Shown here piece after piece: positions 13,503 to 22,025 of a DNA stretch of 64,000 nucleotides (positions are counted from its first letter, which is position 1; the number at the start of each line of letters is the position of its first letter). The notes under the pieces were generated by a model. That model had not been told where the DNA came from. It did no database searches and saw only the letters and a list, made by a program, of their open reading frames with translations. Made by a program: the position numbers and the translations under genes. This DNA is from Aquisalinus luteolus (GTDB taxonomy: Bacteria; Pseudomonadota; Alphaproteobacteria; Caulobacterales; Parvularculaceae), in contig NZ_VCJR02000001.1 in assembly GCF_009712425.2 (NCBI RefSeq), forward strand, positions 1,616,001 to 1,680,000. The letters run 5' to 3'.

Positions 13503-13921
13503 TACATGAATCCCAGTTCCAGCTTCGCTTCGTCCGACATGCGGTCCGGTGTCCAGGGCGGGTCGAACACCATGTTGACCTTCGTCTTGTTCACGCCCTC
13601 CACATCGGTGACGGCGTTCTCGACCCAGATCGGCATTTCGCCCGCCACGGGGCAACCCGGCGCGGTCAAGGTCATCTCGACCTCAACATAGCCGTCGTCG
13701 AAATCTACCTTATAGATGAGACCGAGTTCATAGATATCAACCGGTATCTCCGGATCGTAGACGGTCTTCAGCGCCTTGACGATCTCGGTCGTGATCTTGT
13801 CGATCTCTTCCTGGCTCATCTCCTTGCCCGAGCCTGACAGGGCCGCGCCTTCCGTCGGAATATCCGAGGCAGCTGGCTCGGCCGGTTTCTTCAGGTCGAT
13901 CATGTCGTGCGTGTCGCTCAT
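13502..13921 (-). CDS. sufT: SufT-like Fe-S assembly factor (MIP18/DUF59 family)
   Basis: 139-residue protein of the MIP18/DUF59 family, which helps mature Fe-S proteins in bacteria and eukaryotes. The N-terminal 45 residues are low-complexity. The DUF59 domain follows with ALKTVYDPEIPVDIYELGLIY, then LTAPGCPVAGEMP (the conserved Cys) and VVFDPPWTPDRMSDEAK-type C-terminal signature (VNMVFDPPWTPDRMSDEAK). The ATG at 13921 overlaps the sufS stop codon by four bases (ATGA), which fixes the start. The position between sufS and sufA is the usual alphaproteobacterial one. Confidence 0.92.
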   Translation of the reverse strand: MSDTHDMIDLKKPAEPAASDIPTEGAALSGSGKEMSQEEIDKITTEIVKALKTVYDPEIPVDIYELGLIYKVDFDDGYVEVEMTLTAPGCPVAGEMPIWVENAVTDVEGVNKTKVNMVFDPPWTPDRMSDEAKLELGFM

Positions 13922-15153
13922 GCGAATAACTCCTGCGCCTTGTGCAGCGCCTTGACGAATTGGTCGATATCTTCGTGTGTGTTGTAGGCGGCAAAGCTCG
14001 CCCGGCCTGTCGCCGTGACGCCGAGGCGGCGCATCAGCGGCTGGCAGCAATGATGCCCGGCGCGAATGGCGACGCCCTGCCGGTCGAGTACGGTGGAAAC
14101 ATCATGCGGATGCGCGCCGTTCAGGTTGAAGGCGATCACCGGGCCTTTGTCTGCCGCGCTGCCATAAAGGTCGATCCAGTTGAGACCGGTCAGCGCTTCC
14201 ATCGCGTGGTCGGTCAGCGCCCGCTCATGGGCGCGCAGGCCGTCAATGTCCTGCTCCATCATCCAGTCGAGCGCGGCGCCCAGCGCGATCGCCTCGGTGA
14301 TCGGCGGCGTGCCCGCCTCGAACCGGTGCGGGGGATCGTTATAGGTGACCTCTTCCATGCTGACTGTGTCGATCATCTCGCCGCCGCCACGGAAAGGCGG
14401 CATGGTCGCGAGAACCTCCTTGCGGCCATACAGCGCGCCGATGCCATTGGGCCCATAGATCTTGTGCCCGGTCAGGACATAGAAATCGATGCCCTGCGCC
14501 TGCACGTCCACCGGTCCGTGTACGGCATGCTGGCAGCCATCGGTCATGAACAGCGCATCATGCTCATGGGCGATGGCGGCCATCTCTTTAATAGGCGGCG
14601 TTGCACCCAGCACGTTGGACAGGCCGGTGATGGACGCGATCTTGGTACGCTCGGTGAAGTGTGCCCTGAACGCCTCAAGGTCGATATTGCCGTCATCGTC
14701 GACATCGACCCATTTGATCACCGCACCCTTGCGCTCGCGCAAGAGGTGCCAAGGCACGATGTTGGAATGATGCTCCATGACGGAGAGGATGATCTCGTCG
14801 CCCTCGCCTATATGCCATTTACTGTCAGAGGGGGCACCCAGCGACTGCGCGACGAGGTTCATCGCGTCCGTGCCGCCGGCGGTGAAGACGATTTCGTCAC
14901 GGTCAGCGGCGTTGACGTATTTAGCAACGCTGTCGCGCGCCTTTTCGTAATCCGCCGTCGCCTTGTTCGACAGGTAATGCAGCCCGCGATGGACATTGGC
15001 GTAGCCACCGGTCAGCACCTCATTGATCCGGTCAATGACGATCTGCGGCTTTTGTACCGAGGCTGCATTGTCGAGATAGGCCAGCGGCTTACCGTAAATC
15101 TCGGTCTTCAGGATCGGGAACTGCGCGCGGAAGGATGTGACGTCGAAGCTCAT
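13918..15153 (-). CDS. sufS: Cysteine desulfurase SufS (group II)
   Basis: PLP enzyme of 411 residues that removes sulfur from cysteine and hands it, as a persulfide, to the SUF scaffold. Recognisable features are the N-terminal AYLDNAASVQKPQIVI, the PLP-binding lysine in VLTGHKIYGPNG, and the catalytic cysteine region RAGHHCCQPLMRRLG near residue 369. The short group II loop separates it from IscS-type enzymes such as the one encoded farther upstream in the operon. Its start overlaps the sufD stop codon by four bases, and its end overlaps sufT. No sufE gene is seen inside the operon, so another sulfur acceptor must be encoded elsewhere. Confidence 0.95.
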   Translation of the reverse strand: MSFDVTSFRAQFPILKTEIYGKPLAYLDNAASVQKPQIVIDRINEVLTGGYANVHRGLHYLSNKATADYEKARDSVAKYVNAADRDEIVFTAGGTDAMNLVAQSLGAPSDSKWHIGEGDEIILSVMEHHSNIVPWHLLRERKGAVIKWVDVDDDGNIDLEAFRAHFTERTKIASITGLSNVLGATPPIKEMAAIAHEHDALFMTDGCQHAVHGPVDVQAQGIDFYVLTGHKIYGPNGIGALYGRKEVLATMPPFRGGGEMIDTVSMEEVTYNDPPHRFEAGTPPITEAIALGAALDWMMEQDIDGLRAHERALTDHAMEALTGLNWIDLYGSAADKGPVIAFNLNGAHPHDVSTVLDRQGVAIRAGHHCCQPLMRRLGVTATGRASFAAYNTHEDIDQFVKALHKAQELFA

Positions 15154-16361
15154 CGCGTTCCTCCATCAGTCTGCTGATCCAGCCACGTCTCGATCAGCGC
15201 CGTCAGGCGGGCTTTCACGTCGTCGTCAGAGATATGCTCGAACGCCTCAGCGACGAAAGCCTGCACCAGCATGGCGCGGGCCTGTGCCTCGGTCAGGCCA
15301 CGCTGGCGCATATAGAACAGCGCCTCTGTGTCGAGCGCCCCGGCGGTATTGCCATGGGCACACTGAACATCATCCGCATAGATCATCAGCTCCGGCTTGG
15401 CGTCGACCTCCGCCTCGTCGGACAGGAGCAGCGCGTTATGCGCCATGCGGGCATCGGTTTGTTGCGCATCTTTGGCGACATAGAACCGGCCCTGGAACAC
15501 GCCGCGCCCCTTGTCGGCGAGCACACCCTTGTACAGCTCCTCGGTCACGCAGCCGGGCACCGTGTGGCCGACATCGGTGGTGTTATCGAGATGGCGGCGT
15601 CCGGAAAGCAGGTAAGCCCCGTTGAGCACGGCCCGGGCGCCCTCGCCCTCATGCAGCACCTGCGTCTCCAGCCGGCACAGTTTCGAGCCGAAGCCGAGCG
15701 TACCTTGCGTGAAGTTCGCCTCAGCGGCCAGATTGGCCATGGCGAAGTGCACCTGCACGGCGTCATCATTCGCCTGCTGAAGGATCAGCCGTTCAAGGCT
15801 CGCGCCCTTGGCCAGAGTAAAGCGCATGACACCATTGGCGAACCACGCGTCCTCGCCGCCTTCGAGGCTTTCCACGACACTCGCCTCGGCGCCCTCCTCC
15901 AGCACGACCTGCACGCTGGTATGGTGCATGCCGCTGCCCTCGGACAGGAAGCGCAGATGGATCGGGCGGTCGAGCTTGCCCGACACAGTCAGCACATAAG
16001 TCGCCTCGGCCTTTTCCGTCGCGATATTCGGCAGGTTTTCCCGGAACAGTGGATAGCCGCCGCCGCGCGACAGCGTCACGCCGTCGGGCAGGCTTGCAGG
16101 AGCCTGGGACAGATGGCCATTGGCGAACAGGAATTCGATCGGCTGGTCAAGCGCCAGCAGCGGCGCGCGGGACGAGACGGACTGCACTGAAGGCTGCTTT
16201 TCCTCGCGCAGGGCGGCGCGCACATCGGTCCATTTCCAGCGCTCGTCGCGGCGCGACGGCAGGCCGGTATCGGACAGGATAGTGCCCACCTCGCTGCCTT
16301 CTGCAGGCATCGAGGCAATCAGCGCTTTCTCGAATTCCGTGAACTGGTGGTTTGGTCTCAT
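15150..16361 (-). CDS. sufD: SufD, component of the SufBC2D scaffold
   Basis: 403-residue right-handed beta-helix protein that pairs with SufB and binds SufC to form the Fe-S assembly scaffold. The core is recognised by DRPIHLRFLSEGSG, SVVESLEGGEDAWF, LNGAYLLSGRRHLDNTTDVGHTVPGC, ELYKGVLADKGRGVFQGRFYVAKDAQQTDA and LLLSDEAEVDAKPELMIYADDVQCAHGNTAG. The conserved C-terminal histidine of SufD (CAHG) is present. It follows sufC by three bases and overlaps sufS by four, so the block is translated as a coupled unit. Sequence divergence at the N-terminus is normal for SufD. Confidence 0.95.
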   Translation of the reverse strand: MRPNHQFTEFEKALIASMPAEGSEVGTILSDTGLPSRRDERWKWTDVRAALREEKQPSVQSVSSRAPLLALDQPIEFLFANGHLSQAPASLPDGVTLSRGGGYPLFRENLPNIATEKAEATYVLTVSGKLDRPIHLRFLSEGSGMHHTSVQVVLEEGAEASVVESLEGGEDAWFANGVMRFTLAKGASLERLILQQANDDAVQVHFAMANLAAEANFTQGTLGFGSKLCRLETQVLHEGEGARAVLNGAYLLSGRRHLDNTTDVGHTVPGCVTEELYKGVLADKGRGVFQGRFYVAKDAQQTDARMAHNALLLSDEAEVDAKPELMIYADDVQCAHGNTAGALDTEALFYMRQRGLTEAQARAMLVQAFVAEAFEHISDDDVKARLTALIETWLDQQTDGGTR

Positions 16362-16364
16362 GAT

Positions 16365-17114
16365 TTATGCGGCACTCTGAATATATTTGTCATAACCATG
16401 CTCTTCGAGCTCGCGGGCGATCTCCGGCCCGCCGCTCTCCACGATGCGGCCACCGGCGAGCACATGCACGCGGTCCGGCTTCACATAGTCGAGCAGGCGT
16501 TGATAGTGGGTGATGACGAGGAACCCGCGCGAGCCATCGCGCATCTCGTTGACGACCTCGCCGACCATTTTCAGCGCGTCGATATCGAGGCCGGAATCCG
16601 TCTCGTCGAGAATGCCGAAGCGCGGCTCCAGCATCGCCATCTGCAGCATTTCCATGCGCTTCTTCTCGCCGCCGGAAAAGCCGACATTGAACGGGCGCTT
16701 CAATTTCTCGTCCGACAGGCCGACGATCTTCGCCTTCTCGCGGATCGCGCGCAGGAAGTCGGCGGCGGTTACTTCGTTCTCGCCCCGCGCCTTGCGCTGG
16801 GCGTTGAGGGCAGTGCGGATGAAATTCATCGTCGCGACACCCGGGATTTCCAGCGGATGCTGGAACGACAGGAACAGGCCCTTGGCCGCCCGTTCGTTCG
16901 GGTCCATCTCCAGCAGGCTTTCGCCGTCGAGGGTAATGTCGCCATGGGTGACCTCGTAATCCTCGCGCCCGGTAATGGCATAGGACAGGGTCGACTTGCC
17001 GGAACCGTTCGGCCCCATGATGGCATGAACCTCACCCGCCGGAACCTCCAGCGACAGCCCTTTGAGAATTTCCGTCTCATCGACGGTGATGTGCAGGTTT
17101 TCGATTTTCAGCAT
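16365..17114 (-). CDS. sufC: SufC, Fe-S assembly ABC-type ATPase
   Basis: 249-residue cytosolic ABC ATPase that powers the conformational cycle of the SufBCD scaffold. The Walker A motif is GPNGSGKSTL, the signature is FSGGEKKRMEMLQ, and the Walker B and catalytic Glu appear as FGILDETDSGLDID, the SufC-type variant. Length is typical. Its ATG lies seven bases inside the 3' end of the GIY-YIG gene, whose last codons (GAAGGTGCAAGACT) also supply the ribosome binding site. Thus the intervening gene does not disrupt sufC translation. Confidence 0.96.
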   Translation of the reverse strand: MLKIENLHITVDETEILKGLSLEVPAGEVHAIMGPNGSGKSTLSYAITGREDYEVTHGDITLDGESLLEMDPNERAAKGLFLSFQHPLEIPGVATMNFIRTALNAQRKARGENEVTAADFLRAIREKAKIVGLSDEKLKRPFNVGFSGGEKKRMEMLQMAMLEPRFGILDETDSGLDIDALKMVGEVVNEMRDGSRGFLVITHYQRLLDYVKPDRVHVLAGGRIVESGGPEIARELEEHGYDKYIQSAA

Positions 17115-17917
17115 AGTCTTGCACCTTCGATATTAAAAACTGGAACTGGCGGACCCAAAGCATCTTTCTCATTCAACCATTTACATTGCCACTGTGAACT
17201 TACATCAAATGGCGTCCAGCGCTTACCTATAAACTCTCGATACTGAGAACTTGGAAGTCCATTAAACTCCCATCTACGCCGATTATTTTCAGACTGAACT
17301 TGATGCCAATTAGTGATTTCGTAAATTTCACGGATGACCCCATTGGCAAAACTCACAGCAAACTGAATGTTTCTTCTATTTTCTTTGGTTGGATCACAAA
17401 CCCAAGAAGAACGGGACACTTCATATAACTTATCCGCATCAATAAGACTGAACTTAGTAGGCCTAGCTTCGGCAAAACGGGCACGCGGATAAACAACGAT
17501 ACATGGGAAGTCGATTTTAATCTCTTCCGGTGACAAGGCTGCGTTTAGCTCTCCCACATCACTTGCGCCATATTTGCGATCGCGATCACCTTTCCGCTCG
17601 TTCATGGCCAAAGGATATAAATCAATAAGAGCCGTCTCGACTGCTCGCGCCTCATTATCCGAAAGCGAATGCTGTTGTATTACGATGTGTACGTTTTTGC
17701 CTGATGCCCAAACATCCGAAATGGCTTGTTCTTTTCTGGTCAAAGTTTTGCCAAGCCGCATAGCTTTTTCAGTATCGGCAAGATGCTGGAATACTCTATC
17801 GTGTTGCCCTCTACCGATATAAAAAGTATCACCGCTTTCAGGGTGTACGTACCGATAAACATAGCAGCCTAATTTCTCTGCGACGCCACAATCAAATTTT
17901 CTTAGCGGGTTCAGCAT
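17108..17917 (-). CDS. GIY-YIG nuclease-like protein inserted between sufB and sufC
   Basis: 269-residue protein, not part of the classical SUF set. Residues 15-112 form a LEM-3/COG3680-type GIY-YIG domain: YVY (19-21), FYIGRG (32-37), R41, H45, then NEARAVETALIDLYP containing the likely metal-binding Glu (E94) and the MNERKG block (N106). Residues about 140-248 form a second domain (SRSSWVCD, NIQFAVSFANGVIREIYEI, NRRRWEFNGLP, FIGKRW) that resembles PUA/EVE-like folds; this is inference. The ATG at 17917 shares one base with the sufB stop codon (a GTG three bases earlier is possible), GAGGGGAG precedes it, and the 3' end overlaps sufC. Base composition is clearly more AT-rich than in all neighbours, a sign of acquisition. 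Function unknown: nuclease, mobile passenger or repair factor. Confidence 0.85.
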   Translation of the reverse strand: MLNPLRKFDCGVAEKLGCYVYRYVHPESGDTFYIGRGQHDRVFQHLADTEKAMRLGKTLTRKEQAISDVWASGKNVHIVIQQHSLSDNEARAVETALIDLYPLAMNERKGDRDRKYGASDVGELNAALSPEEIKIDFPCIVVYPRARFAEARPTKFSLIDADKLYEVSRSSWVCDPTKENRRNIQFAVSFANGVIREIYEITNWHQVQSENNRRRWEFNGLPSSQYREFIGKRWTPFDVSSQWQCKWLNEKDALGPPVPVFNIEGARLC

Positions 17918-19473
17918 CACCCGACGCTCCCCTCGAGGCTGACCTCGAGCAATTTCTGGGCTTCGACGGCAAATTCCATCGGCAGCTGCTGCAGAACGTC
18001 CTTGCAGAAACCGTTTACCAGAAGCGACACCGCTTCTTCCTCGTTCAGGCCGCGCTGCATGCAGTAGAACAGCTGGTCCTCCGACAGGCGCGAGGTCGTC
18101 GCCTCGTGCTCCAGCACGGCGCTGGAGTTTTTCGCCTCAATGTAAGGCACGGTGTGGGCGCCGCACTGGTCGCCGATCAGCAGCGAGTCGCATTGCGTGA
18201 AATTGCGCACGCCCGATGCCTTGCGGTGCACCGAGACGAGCCCGCGATAGGTCTGGTCGGAGAAGCCGGCGGCGATCCCTTTGGAGATGATCCGACTCGT
18301 CGTGTTCTTGCCCAGATGGATCATCTTGGTGCCGGTATCGGCCTGCTGATGATTGTTGGTGATGGCGATCGAATAGAACTCGCCGACCGAGTTGTCGCCG
18401 CGCAGGATGCAGGACGGGTATTTCCAGGTCACGGCGGAGCCGGTCTCGACCTGCGTCCACGAAATCTTGGATCGCGCCTCGCGGCAGTCGCCGCGCTTGG
18501 TCACGAAATTATAGATACCGCCCTTGCCGTCCTTGTCGCCGGGATACCAGTTCTGGACGGTGGAATATTTGATCTCGGCATCCTCCAGCGCGACCAGTTC
18601 CACGACGGCAGCGTGCAGCTGGTTCTCGTCGCGCATCGGCGCGGTGCAGCCTTCGAGGTAGGAGACGTAAGCGCCCTTGTCGGCGACGATCAGCGTGCGC
18701 TCGAACTGGCCGGTATTGGCCTCGTTGATGCGGAAATAGGTCGACAGTTCCATCGGGCAGCGCACGCCGGGCGGGACGTATACAAAAGTGCCGTCGGAGA
18801 AGACCGCCGAGTTCAGCGTCGCGAAGAAATTATCCGACGTTGGCACGACCGAGCCGATATATTTCTTCACCAGCTCGGGGTGCTCGCGGATAGCCTCGGA
18901 AATCGACATGAAGATGACGCCCGCCTTCTCCAGCTCCTTCTTGAAGGTGGTGGCGACGGACACGCTATCGAACACCGCATCGACGGCGACCTTCTGTTTG
19001 GCGGTGCCTTCGCCGCCAACACCTGCATCGGTGCGTGCCTCGCCCGGTGTCTGGCCAGCGCCCTCGACGCCGAGCAGCACTTCGGCTTCCTTCAGCGGAA
19101 TGCCGAGCTTCTCGAAATCGGCGAGGATTTCCGGCGGCACGTCGTCGATGGACTCATATTTCGAGCCGGTCTTCGGCGCGGCGTAGTAATAATGGTCCTG
19201 ATAGTCGATGGCCGGATATTTGACGTGGGCCCAGGTCGGCTCCTCCATCTCCTGCCAGCGCTTGAACGCCTCCAGCCGCCAGTCGAGCATCCATTGCGGC
19301 TCTTCCTTCTTGGCGGAGATGAAGCGCACCGTGTCCTCGTTCAGGCCCTTTGGCGCCTTCTCGGTCTCGATATCGGTAATGAAGCCGTGCTTGTAGGTCT
19401 CCAGCTCTCGGGTCACGTCGACCGTGGCCTGGTCGATCCCTTCCTTCACGACTGTTTCTTTTACCTGTGACAT
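17917..19473 (-). CDS. sufB: SufB, Fe-S cluster assembly scaffold
   Basis: 518-residue core scaffold on which [Fe-S] clusters are built by SufBC2D. Recognised by [122 protein letters not shown] and [20 protein letters not shown]. The conserved cysteine in LEGCTAP and the C-terminal region are intact. It lies 12 bp downstream of the iscS-like gene. The next gene, the GIY-YIG protein, starts on its stop codon. It is full length, so the insertion is strictly intergenic. Confidence 0.96.
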
Positions 19474-19485
19474 CTCAATCGTCCT

Positions 19486-20664
19486 TTACGCTGCCGTTGT
19501 GGCCGAGACGGCCGTGGCGCGTTTTGTGGCGCGGGCATAAGCCGCGCTCCATTCCTTCAGAAATATTTCTGCCGCATCGTCCGGCGTATCAAATCCCAGC
19601 GAGACCCGGATCGAGCATTCCGCTTCCTGTGGGCTCGCGCCCATGGCGGTCGTGACATGGCTCGCCGTCACCTTGCCGGAGGAACAGGCAGAGCCTGCCG
19701 AGATCGCGATCCCGGCGAGGTCGAGGGCCATGATCTGGGTCTCGGCCCGGAAGCCCGGTCCGGCGAAACAGGTCGTGTTCGGCACACGCGGCGCGTTCTC
19801 GCCGAAGATCTTCAGCCCCGGAATATCCATCTGCTTAAGCCCGGCCTCGATCCTGTCGCGGATCGCTTCGAGGCGCTTGGCGCCATCGATATCGATCTCC
19901 CGCGCCGCGGCGGCAAACCCGGCAATGGTGATGATGCCCTCTGTCCCGGCCCGGCGGCTCATCTCCTGCCCGCCGCCACGCACCAGCGGCGCGAGAGGCA
20001 CGGCGGGCTTGGTCAGCAGCGCGCCGGCGCCTTTCGGGCCGTTGATCTTGTGCGCCGAGACGGACAGAAGATCAGCTTGCAAGTTATTGAAACTGATCGG
20101 CATTTTACCAAATGCCTGCACCGCATCGACGAACAGGTAACCGCCCTTGGCAAAGATAGCCGAGGTGACGCCGGAAACGTCCTGAATGACGCCGGTTTCA
20201 TTGTTCGCCAGCATCAGGCAAACCATGAAAACGCCTTCCTTTTCAGGGTCATAGTCCGCGAGGCGGGATTTCAGCCAGTCCGTATCGGAACGGCCATCGG
20301 CGAGCGTTGGTATAATTTCCAGAGCGAGGCCTTCCGCTTCCAGCGCGCGGGCGCAGCGCAGGGTCGCGTTATGTTCGATGCCGGACACGATCAGCCGGGT
20401 CACCGGCTCCTTCTCGCGACGGGCCATGCCATAAAGCGCCATGTTGATCGCCTCGGTGCCGCCGGAGGTGAAAATGATCCCCTCCTTCGGCGCATCGCAG
20501 GCAGCGGCGATATCGGCGCGGGCCGCCTCGACCAGCGCCTTGGCCTTGCGGCCCTCTTCATGGACGGAGGACGGGTTGCCGGCGTCCATGGCCGCGATCA
20601 TCGCCTCTTTCACGGCAGGCTTGATCGGCGTTGTTGCATTATGGTCGAGGAAAAGTCGGCTCAT
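19486..20664 (-). CDS. IscS/NifS-like cysteine desulfurase (group I)
   Basis: Class V aminotransferase-fold PLP enzyme of 392 residues. The N-terminus LFLDHNATTPIKPAVKEAM, the PLP lysine in VSAHKINGPKGAGALL and the catalytic cysteine loop AGSACSSGKVTASHV identify a group I (IscS/NifS) desulfurase, distinct from SufS in the same operon. It delivers cysteine sulfur, possibly to Fe-S assembly or tRNA thiolation. Its ATG overlaps the iscR stop codon by four bases, so both are translated together. The iscR-iscS-sufB order is common in alphaproteobacteria, which lack a complete isc operon. No IscU is encoded here. Confidence 0.92.
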   Translation of the reverse strand: MSRLFLDHNATTPIKPAVKEAMIAAMDAGNPSSVHEEGRKAKALVEAARADIAAACDAPKEGIIFTSGGTEAINMALYGMARREKEPVTRLIVSGIEHNATLRCARALEAEGLALEIIPTLADGRSDTDWLKSRLADYDPEKEGVFMVCLMLANNETGVIQDVSGVTSAIFAKGGYLFVDAVQAFGKMPISFNNLQADLLSVSAHKINGPKGAGALLTKPAVPLAPLVRGGGQEMSRRAGTEGIITIAGFAAAAREIDIDGAKRLEAIRDRIEAGLKQMDIPGLKIFGENAPRVPNTTCFAGPGFRAETQIMALDLAGIAISAGSACSSGKVTASHVTTAMGASPQEAECSIRVSLGFDTPDDAAEIFLKEWSAAYARATKRATAVSATTAA

Positions 20665-21125
20665 TTCACCACCTCCAGCGCCTCGATCGGCTCACCCACC
20701 ATGGCCCGGCCCAGCACCTTTTTGTCGGTGATATCAGCCAGCGTGACCGAGGACAGGAAGACGTCGATATGGCGGCCCAGTTCGTCCCACAGGTCATGGG
20801 TCAGGCAGCGGGCTGTCGTCCCCGCGCAGCCGATATGCTCGCCCGGCTGACAGGCGGTGGTGCGGATCGGCTCGTCGACCGCGCGGACAATATCCGACAC
20901 GCGGATCTCCGCGGGCGCGGCAGTCAGTACGTAACCGCCAGTCGCACCGCGGCGGCTCTCGACCAGTCCGGCCTTGCGAAGCTTGGCGAACAGCTGCTCC
21001 AGGAAGGTCGCCGAGATTACCTGACGCGCCGCGATATCGGACAGCGCCACCGGCCCGTCATCGCCAAAGGCGGCGATATCGGCCAAGGCCGTCACGGCAT
21101 AGCGCGCTTTCGCGGTCAGTTTCAT
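20661..21125 (-). CDS. iscR: Rrf2-family regulator, IscR-like [2Fe-2S] repressor
   Basis: 154-residue winged-helix regulator that senses Fe-S status and controls the operon it leads. The N-terminal helix-turn-helix is typical of the family (MKLTAKARYAVTALADIA, ISATFLEQLFAKLRKAGLV, RGATGGYVL). Cluster ligands are plausible at C92, C100, C107 and H110 (CQPGEHIGC..RCLTHDLW). The cysteine spacing is slightly longer than in E. coli IscR (92, 98, 104, H107). It is the first gene of the iscR-iscS-suf unit. A candidate operator overlaps its promoter, which fits autorepression by the holo form. Confidence 0.92.
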   Translation of the reverse strand: MKLTAKARYAVTALADIAAFGDDGPVALSDIAARQVISATFLEQLFAKLRKAGLVESRRGATGGYVLTAAPAEIRVSDIVRAVDEPIRTTACQPGEHIGCAGTTARCLTHDLWDELGRHIDVFLSSVTLADITDKKVLGRAMVGEPIEALEVVK

Positions 21126-21224
21126 CTGCTGGACACTCCTTTAATGTGCGTCTTGTCCGTCTTTTGTGGAAATCGGGAAAAAACGTGGTATAGCACCAGC
21201 TTCACCCTGCTCTTCCTTGATCGG

Positions 21225-21257
21225 GATGTAGGAAACCTGACCAGAACAGTCAACATT
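21225..21257 (-). promoter_or_regulatory. Candidate iscR-suf promoter with type 1 IscR site
   Basis: On the minus strand TTGACT (21248-21253) and TACATC (21225-21230) are 17 bp apart, about 100 bp before the iscR start codon. The -35 region sits inside AATGTTGACTGTTCTGGTCA (first 20 bases of 21233-21257). This agrees at about three quarters of positions with the E. coli type 1 IscR consensus, including the GACT and GTC half-site cores at the right distance. Holo-IscR binding here would block RNA polymerase. Confidence 0.5.
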
Positions 21258-21359
21258 AACCAGCGGCTTATGAGCGAGTTTTCGGGCTATGTCACCCCCA
21301 ATCCTGACCGGGTCAGTCAGGCTATCGCCTCTCACCAGCCGCGCAGGTAAGTTTCAATC

Positions 21360-22025
21360 ATGCCAGAAGTAATTTTTGCCGGTCCGGAAGGCCGCCTTGA
21401 AGGCCGTTATCAGAAGGGAAAAGGGGAAAATGCGCCGATCGCACTGATCCTGCATCCCCACCCCCAGTTCGGCGGCACCATGAACAACAAGCTGTGCTAC
21501 GAGATGTATCACATGTTCGCCCGCCGCGGGTTTGCCGTACTGCGCTTCAATTTCCGCGGCGTTGGCCGTTCCCAGGGCGAATATGATCAGGGCCAAGGCG
21601 AGCTGTCCGATGCCGCAACCGCGCTCGATTACCTGCAGTCACTGAACCCGAACGCGCCCTTCGTCTGGGTCGCCGGTTTCTCTTTCGGCTCGTGGATCGG
21701 CATGCAGCTGTTGATGCGTCGGCCGGAGATCGTCGGCTTCATCTCGGCTTCGGCCTGCGCCAATCTCTACGACTTCACCTTCCTTGCGCCCTGCCCGTCA
21801 TCCGGCATCGTCATCCATGGCGAGAATGACCGGATCTGCCCATGGCAGGAGACAGAAGACATGGTCGCCAAGACCCGCACCCAGAAAGGCCGCAAGGTCG
21901 AATTTGCCATGGTGCCCGGCGCGGACCATTTCTTCGAGGCTAATCTGGAGGACTACATGAAAGTCGCCGAGGGCTATCTCGACAGGCGTCTGCAGCAACC
22001 GCCCGAGGGAGAATATTTCGACTAG
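21360..22025 (+). CDS. Alpha/beta hydrolase (COG2945-type esterase-like)
   Basis: 221-residue cytosolic alpha/beta hydrolase. The oxyanion region LHPHPQFGGTMNNKLCYEM and FNFRGVGRSQGEYDQGQGE are hallmarks of the COG2945 group. The nucleophile elbow is GFSFGSW (catalytic Ser), and likely acid and His residues are in GENDRICPW and GADHFFE. Substrate is unknown. It is divergent from iscR, with 234 bp between the start codons, and it is followed after 78 bp by an unrelated lipoprotein gene. No signal peptide is seen. Confidence 0.85.
   Translation: MPEVIFAGPEGRLEGRYQKGKGENAPIALILHPHPQFGGTMNNKLCYEMYHMFARRGFAVLRFNFRGVGRSQGEYDQGQGELSDAATALDYLQSLNPNAPFVWVAGFSFGSWIGMQLLMRRPEIVGFISASACANLYDFTFLAPCPSSGIVIHGENDRICPWQETEDMVAKTRTQKGRKVEFAMVPGADHFFEANLEDYMKVAEGYLDRRLQQPPEGEYFD

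Follow-up and report, generated by a model that had tools for sequence, protein, structure and literature searches.

A PD-T4-3/CMoRE-related GIY-YIG nuclease gene in Aquisalinus luteolus lies at a sufB-sufC junction of variable gene content

A GIY-YIG endonuclease gene related to PD-T4-3/CMoRE was found between sufB and sufC of Aquisalinus luteolus in a stretch of 64,000 nucleotides (nt) of assembly GCF_009712425.2 (contig NZ_VCJR02000001.1, positions 1,616,001 to 1,680,000). The whole of this stretch is called the window here and all coordinates are given in its numbering. The gene occupies 17108..17920 on the minus strand and was assigned from the list of open reading frames (ORFs), from Pfam, PHROG, PADLOC and PDB matches and from an alignment. 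It lies between sufB (17917..19473, minus strand) and sufC (16365..17114, minus strand), both identified by NCBIfam matches above cut-off; the five genes run on the minus strand from iscR through the cysteine desulfurase gene, sufB and the GIY-YIG ORF to sufC. The GIY-YIG ORF has 270 amino acids (aa) counted from a GTG codon and 269 aa from the next codon, an ATG at 17917, whose first base doubles as the third base of the TGA that ends sufB (TGATG). At its 3' end, which reads ...CTATGCTGA, the stop codon sits 7 nt within sufC, the last 7 nt of the gene overlapping sufC. The guanine-plus-cytosine (GC) content of the gene is 0.44 compared with 0.60 for the locus, and its third-position GC is 0.37 compared with 0.83 in sufB and 0.80 in sufC. 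A first-pass annotation had described an AT-rich gene of 269 residues placed exactly between sufB and sufC, starting on the sufB stop and ending in the sufC start region; coordinates, overlaps and composition agree with that description.

Analysis of the window protein revealed matches to the PADLOC profile PD-T4-3 (PDLC04031; E-value 7.8e-34, protein residues 7-215, profile positions 4-199 of 256), PHROG 5356 (6.5e-36), Pfam LEM-3_GIY-YIG (8e-13) and the PDB sequences 9u7u (7.9e-24) and 9u75 (2.4e-23), both of which are CMoRE; the NCBIfam scan of the protein gave no match. CMoRE, the renamed PD-T4-3, is encoded by one gene and is reported as a type IV restriction enzyme that cleaves DNA containing 5-hydroxymethylcytosine (5hmC) or glucosylated 5-hydroxymethylcytosine (5ghmC), with a GIYxY-YIG motif, a C-terminal sensing domain and, in most members, an acidic lid (PMC12923530). 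CMoRE is also characterised by protection against T-even-like phages. The GIYxY-YIG motif and the catalytic Arg and Glu are present in the window protein. An alignment of 19 rows (the window protein, 16 relatives and two partial PDB chains) placed the catalytic residues at Y20, Y22, Y34, R42, H46, E95 and N107, numbered from the GTG start (Y20 to N107, 17600..17863, minus strand). These columns, together with G36 and G38, were invariant in the 19 rows, the exception being a gap at Y20 in one relative (L228). The GIY-YIG catalytic set that the first reading of the DNA had taken to be intact (Tyr, Arg, Glu and Asn) is thus confirmed by the alignment. Overall, the profile matches and the alignment show the predicted product of the ORF to be an intact, distant member of the PD-T4-3/CMoRE family with a complete catalytic set. 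It resembles CMoRE (PDB 9U7U and 9U75) in being a single gene of similar length, with an N-terminal GIYxY-YIG domain carrying the full catalytic set and a C-terminal half that can be aligned. It differs in being 25-26% identical to the solved structures, in having no acidic inhibitory lid and in being located in a housekeeping operon. When the AlphaFold model was used as a Foldseek query, the top four matches were CMoRE structures (E-values 1.6e-13 to 1e-12). YTH domains, which are readers of modified bases, were considered as a fold match and rejected, their Foldseek E-values of 0.37 and worse not being significant.

Comparative analysis of the operon suggests that the junction is more unusual than the gene, since related bacteria often exchange unrelated genes there. 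One set of 149 genomes from the window's order was searched for both SufB and SufC, each of which was matched in 142. Fifteen genomes were dropped because of a missing match or because the genes lay on different contigs, leaving 134 measured junctions, the window's included. Gene pairs were dropped where the two genes were not both found on the retrieved region, where the gap was under -300 or where the desulfurase match was under 35% identity. Because the genomes are related, Fisher and binomial P values would assume a false independence and the comparisons are expressed as counts alone. A gap of at least 250 base pairs (bp) separated sufB and sufC in 110/134 cases, and the gap was under 120 bp in 19/134. 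The same spacing was found in 1/125 sufC-sufD junctions, 7/132 sufD-sufS junctions, none of 106 iscR-desulfurase junctions and 19/127 desulfurase-sufB junctions, 17 of the 19 coming from the window's taxonomic family (f1), in which 17/45 desulfurase-sufB junctions had at least 250 bp, with a maximum of 667 bp. The first-pass annotation had called the sufB-sufC junction strongly conserved, a premise that these counts contradict: of the five operon junctions measured, none varies more in this order.

Elsewhere in the class, sufB-sufC gaps of at least 250 bp were found in 12/103 junctions (from 102 genomes out of 172 sampled, the order's own two omitted). Among 80 named loci, a non-random set picked by SufB similarity, 21/80 sufB-sufC gaps reached this size compared with 1/73 for sufC-sufD and 1/45 for desulfurase-sufB; the sufD-sufS junction is likewise open in this set (10/76). 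The sufD-sufS spacing is about 1.06-1.13 kb in several of the named loci of Rhodobacterales type, such as L143, L161, L162, L172, L176, L180 and L182. The counts for the order (110/134), the class (12/103) and the named loci (21/80) indicate that the slot belongs mostly to this order, with scattered examples outside it.

In our literature searches the sufB-sufC junction was not found described as a variable slot, and single cases have been published. In the bacteroidete Muricauda olearia the sufB-sufC junction holds momL, and the authors who reported it call this location unique. As at the window's junction, an unrelated gene stands between intact sufB and sufC, and co-transcription with suf is reported; the gene differs in encoding an acyl-homoserine lactone (AHL) lactonase, and the host belongs to another group (PMC5484670). 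In Caulobacter crescentus, an alphaproteobacterium, a small additional ORF at the same junction is mentioned in passing, within an operon shown to be co-transcribed; it differs from the window gene in being annotated as an ADP-ribosylglycohydrolase (PMC11475020).

Analysis of what the slot carries in the order set started from 207 cargo ORFs of at least 75 aa, of which 34 on the opposite strand were left out. The 173 same-strand ORFs come from 104 loci and form 64 clusters. Pfam counts (E-value 0.001) were made on 172 ORFs, 79 from the window's family and 93 from other families, the window ORF being scanned apart. RidA/L-PSP was matched by 22 ORFs of the window's family and four of other families, Cupin_2 by 19 and three, SnoaL_2 by four and nine, DUF4440 by five and five, glyoxalase by none and 10, and short-chain dehydrogenase by three and none; DUF559, Barstar and ParE had one cargo match each. 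Recognisable cargo therefore consists mostly of RidA, cupin, SnoaL-like and glyoxalase genes, and recognisable nucleases are rare; since many cargo ORFs match no Pfam family, some could be unrecognised nucleases. RidA-family genes are the commonest cargo, present in 25 loci of the order (for example L016:5358-5795). This RidA gene and some others open with what looks like a signal peptide, unusual for a RidA protein. By eye, such a start was seen in several cargo genes of the RidA and cupin families, and it does not suggest a role in cytosolic iron-sulphur (Fe-S) assembly. PADLOC PD-T4-2_B matches in the cargo (22/79 and 1/93) were considered as defence genes and rejected, because Pfam RidA/L-PSP counts of 22 and 4 point to a common domain, a judgement made on family totals.

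In the order set, nuclease-like cargo was recognised twice, as the window gene itself and as a glyoxalase-DUF559 ORF of locus L136. Outside the order, a small GIY-YIG protein of 113 aa lies between sufB and sufC in Rhizobium bangladeshense (L154:7518-7856; from the Pfam count, the locus being assigned by eye). At this junction it represents another kind of GIY-YIG, distinguished by its length, by being of the Pfam PF01541 type and by having no room for a CMoRE-like second domain. DUF559-type cargo was found at the junction in Aurantiacibacter (L183:7738-8268), Croceicoccus (L192:7818-8345) and an uncultured Erythrobacter (L196:8195-8728), the loci again being assigned by eye. The first-pass annotation's general impression of nuclease-like genes at this place in other alphaproteobacteria holds in that such genes exist (one GIY-YIG and three DUF559-type), but they are sparse, amounting to 4/21 occupied junctions among the 80 named loci. 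The largest cargo was found at L080 (genome G080), where a sufB-sufC gap of 7733 bp holds several ORFs, including a trypsin-like autotransporter of 1128 aa. At L131:4610-5771 a ParE-like toxin gene and a possible small partner share the slot with a neighbouring glyoxalase-type gene.

Cargo turnover in the slot is fast. On a quickly built SufB+SufC tree, which holds 127 rows after seven truncated ones were omitted from the 134, slot occupancy, cut at 120 bp, requires at least 14 changes. For the label of the first cargo gene (116 labelled rows, 49 states) the minimum is 69 changes, and with singleton clusters left out (83 rows, 16 states) it is 36. The window gene is itself a singleton among the cargo clusters.

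The closest genome found, G004, is 96% identical in SufB and in SufC and 98% over 609 columns. The window gene has no match in this genome, which is 92% complete; its sufB and sufC are 19 bp apart, and by eye this spacer is unlike any part of the window gene. Three same-genus genomes (G005, G001 and G002) share a cargo cluster, a short-chain dehydrogenase, and in the fifth genome of the genus (G003) neither SufB nor SufC was matched. Between the window and G004, 21/120 nt differ beside the junction compared with 200/2307 overall, and 18 of 730 overlapping segments are as divergent as the junction-side 120 nt. This divergence hints, not strongly, at import by homology to the flanking sufB and sufC; no donor for recombination through flanking sufB/sufC DNA was visible.

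The family to which the gene belongs is sporadic. The window protein was matched in 9/398 genomes of the order and in 3/100 relatives, and the PD-T4-3 profile in 10/385 genomes of the class, the own genome being counted each time. Relatives occur in 17 phage records and 42 plasmid records; four of the 17 phage records label their relative a putative homing nuclease. Family query A4, in which the window protein is not included, matched 214 viral-contig stretches. A scan of genome contigs with the GIY-YIG protein gave 13 pattern matches with no relative among them, and a scan of viral contigs with L227 gave four, again with no relative. Eighteen loci from the family searches were examined for suf flanks, of which one (L231) is the window's own; among the remaining 17, L233 and L234 have weak GIY matches only and L232 has none by tblastn. 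SufB, SufC, SufD, SufS, IscR and desulfurase were unmatched (tblastn, 1e-10) in the flanks of these 17 loci, searched up to about 1.5 kb per side and less at contig ends. At the 133 other measured sufB-sufC junctions, no relative of the window gene was found among cargo ORFs of at least 75 aa. The PD-T4-3/CMoRE family is thus mobile, and a tie to suf was not seen in the loci checked. A sporadic gene with no suf genes in the searched flanks of 17 other loci from the family searches is best read as an acquired passenger and not as a suf component. These results favour one of two suggestions made in the first-pass annotation, that a mobile gene settled at the junction, with sufB and sufC remaining intact: the gene is AT-rich and missing from the closest genome, the family is sporadic and relatives occur in phage and plasmid records. 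The other suggestion, a deliberate link between the nuclease and Fe-S status, is not supported by the 133 junctions and 17 loci. By the test that the annotation itself set, the gene's absence from this site in relatives makes a functional link unlikely despite the intact catalytic residues.

The operon around the gene may offer a route to its expression. The last codons of sufB (LEGSVG), GAGGGGAG, are Shine-Dalgarno-like and stand 9 nt ahead of the cargo ATG, and an AAGG within the cargo gene stands 9 nt upstream of the sufC ATG; ribosomes may use both sites. In 54/110 occupied junctions TG directly follows the sufB stop, giving an overlapping ATG. ATG-stop overlaps of this type are common in operons generally. 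The operon begins on the minus strand with an IscR-like Rrf2 regulator (20661..21125; best NCBIfam match TIGR02010 IscR, below its curated cut-off, the Rrf2 superfamily cut-off being passed) and a NifS/IscS-type cysteine desulfurase (19486..20664; best match TIGR03402 NifS among several families, all below cut-off). Downstream of sufC on the same strand lie sufD (15150..16361) and a sufS-type cysteine desulfurase (13918..15153), ORFs that were named by reading their translations and served as queries in the junction search; the sufT-like and sufA genes of the window were named in the same way. In C. crescentus the tested junctions of the isc-suf operon were reported to be co-transcribed, and iron starvation raises expression of the operon (PMC11475020). 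By analogy, the cargo gene of the window would be co-transcribed with its isc-suf operon.

Taken together, we consider it probable that the gene is an intact PD-T4-3/CMoRE relative, recently acquired and carried as operon-expressed cargo in an exchangeable sufB-sufC slot, where it acts like CMoRE on phage DNA. Its acquisition would be recent, with phage or plasmid DNA as a possible source, and the gene would be transcribed along with the isc-suf operon, with no promoter of its own. Its translation would begin by re-initiation at the sufB stop, using the Shine-Dalgarno sequence encoded by the last sufB codons, and its 3' end would pass ribosomes on to sufC. The C-terminal half may recognise hypermodified phage DNA, probably modified cytosine, which the GIY-YIG domain would cleave; the connection to Fe-S assembly would be shared expression only. 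Family membership suggests the phage-defence role, and position suggests the shared expression with suf.

Several observations weigh against this explanation. Where CMoRE has its acidic lid (DDDE/DDDD), the window protein has RLGKTLTRK (17732..17758, minus strand; from the alignment), and its loop LADTEKAMRLGKTLTRKEQA has a net charge of +2 with no acidic run. The lid keeps CMoRE from cleaving ordinary DNA, so with the basic stretch in its place the enzyme is predicted to restrain itself less or to be controlled in another way. Several of the 16 aligned relatives likewise have a loop that is neutral or positive, and the acidic loop over the active site is described as present in most CMoRE members, not all, and not as a required feature (PMC12923530). 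Identity to 12 aligned family members is only 21-31%, so the target preference may differ, and no close orthologue of the gene was found. The C-terminal part (17108..17530, minus strand, approximate limits) aligns with the modification-sensing half of CMoRE and is covered in large part by sequence alignments; in the AlphaFold model the N-terminal domain is fairly confident and the C-terminal part poor (mean predicted local distance difference test score, pLDDT, 60.7). The Foldseek template-modelling (TM) score to CMoRE structures is just 0.32, which we attribute to the uncertain C-terminal part. As for expression, GGGAG or GGAAG was found at 88/110 occupied junctions and also at 11/19 that are nearly empty, and so does not mark occupied junctions in particular. 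The promoter scan of 16300-21400, weak evidence in favour of the explanation, found two sites compared with 2.0 expected; one of them (17309-17282) lies within the cargo gene and could serve sufC. No promoter was found upstream of iscR by the same scan, and its silence on a cargo promoter consequently says little.

Among other explanations, a neutral passenger with no present function, heading for loss, fares best and is nevertheless unlikely. It accords with the presence of the gene in one genome, its absence from the closest genome and the high turnover of the slot, but the ORF and all its catalytic residues are intact and the gene overlaps both neighbours in a coupling position. Less probable still is that the gene encodes a free-standing endonuclease of the homing type, which would target sufB-sufC junctions without cargo and so spread into them. 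The homing label in four of the 17 phage records, the exact insertion beside a cargo-free closest genome and the high junction-side divergence (21/120 nt, equalled by 18/730 segments) would fit such an enzyme; the best family match is a restriction enzyme, the searched flanks of 17 other family loci hold no suf genes, junction cargo is mostly not recognisable nucleases, the divergence peak is modest with no visible donor, and no relative was found among cargo ORFs of at least 75 aa at the 133 other junctions. Recruitment of the nuclease for iron or Fe-S stress through IscR control is equally improbable: an IscR-like gene heads the operon and expression of the C. crescentus operon rises when iron is scarce (PMC11475020), but the gene occupies the junction in one genome among 134, no suf link was seen at the other family loci checked and the other cargo belongs to unrelated predicted families.

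Acquired, operon-expressed cargo of the PD-T4-3/CMoRE family being the preferred explanation, a wider reading can be offered tentatively, and we regard it as possible but somewhat short of likely: the sufB-sufC junction of this order may be a standing cargo port in an essential operon, with its ribosome-binding site in the last sufB codons, here used by a phage-defence nuclease. Since those codons hold the binding site, a promoterless newcomer would be expressed at once and kept beside indispensable genes. If true, such a port would give defence genes a landing site of another type than integrase- or transfer RNA-linked islands. For the family, the window enzyme is a distant, lid-less addition to a group proposed as a tool for 5hmC detection. 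For these bacteria, one fixed junction of an Fe-S operon often gains and loses unrelated genes and most other junctions stay tight. The slot is therefore a testable case of how foreign genes may be expressed with no promoter of their own, and of why one junction is tolerant and its neighbours are not.

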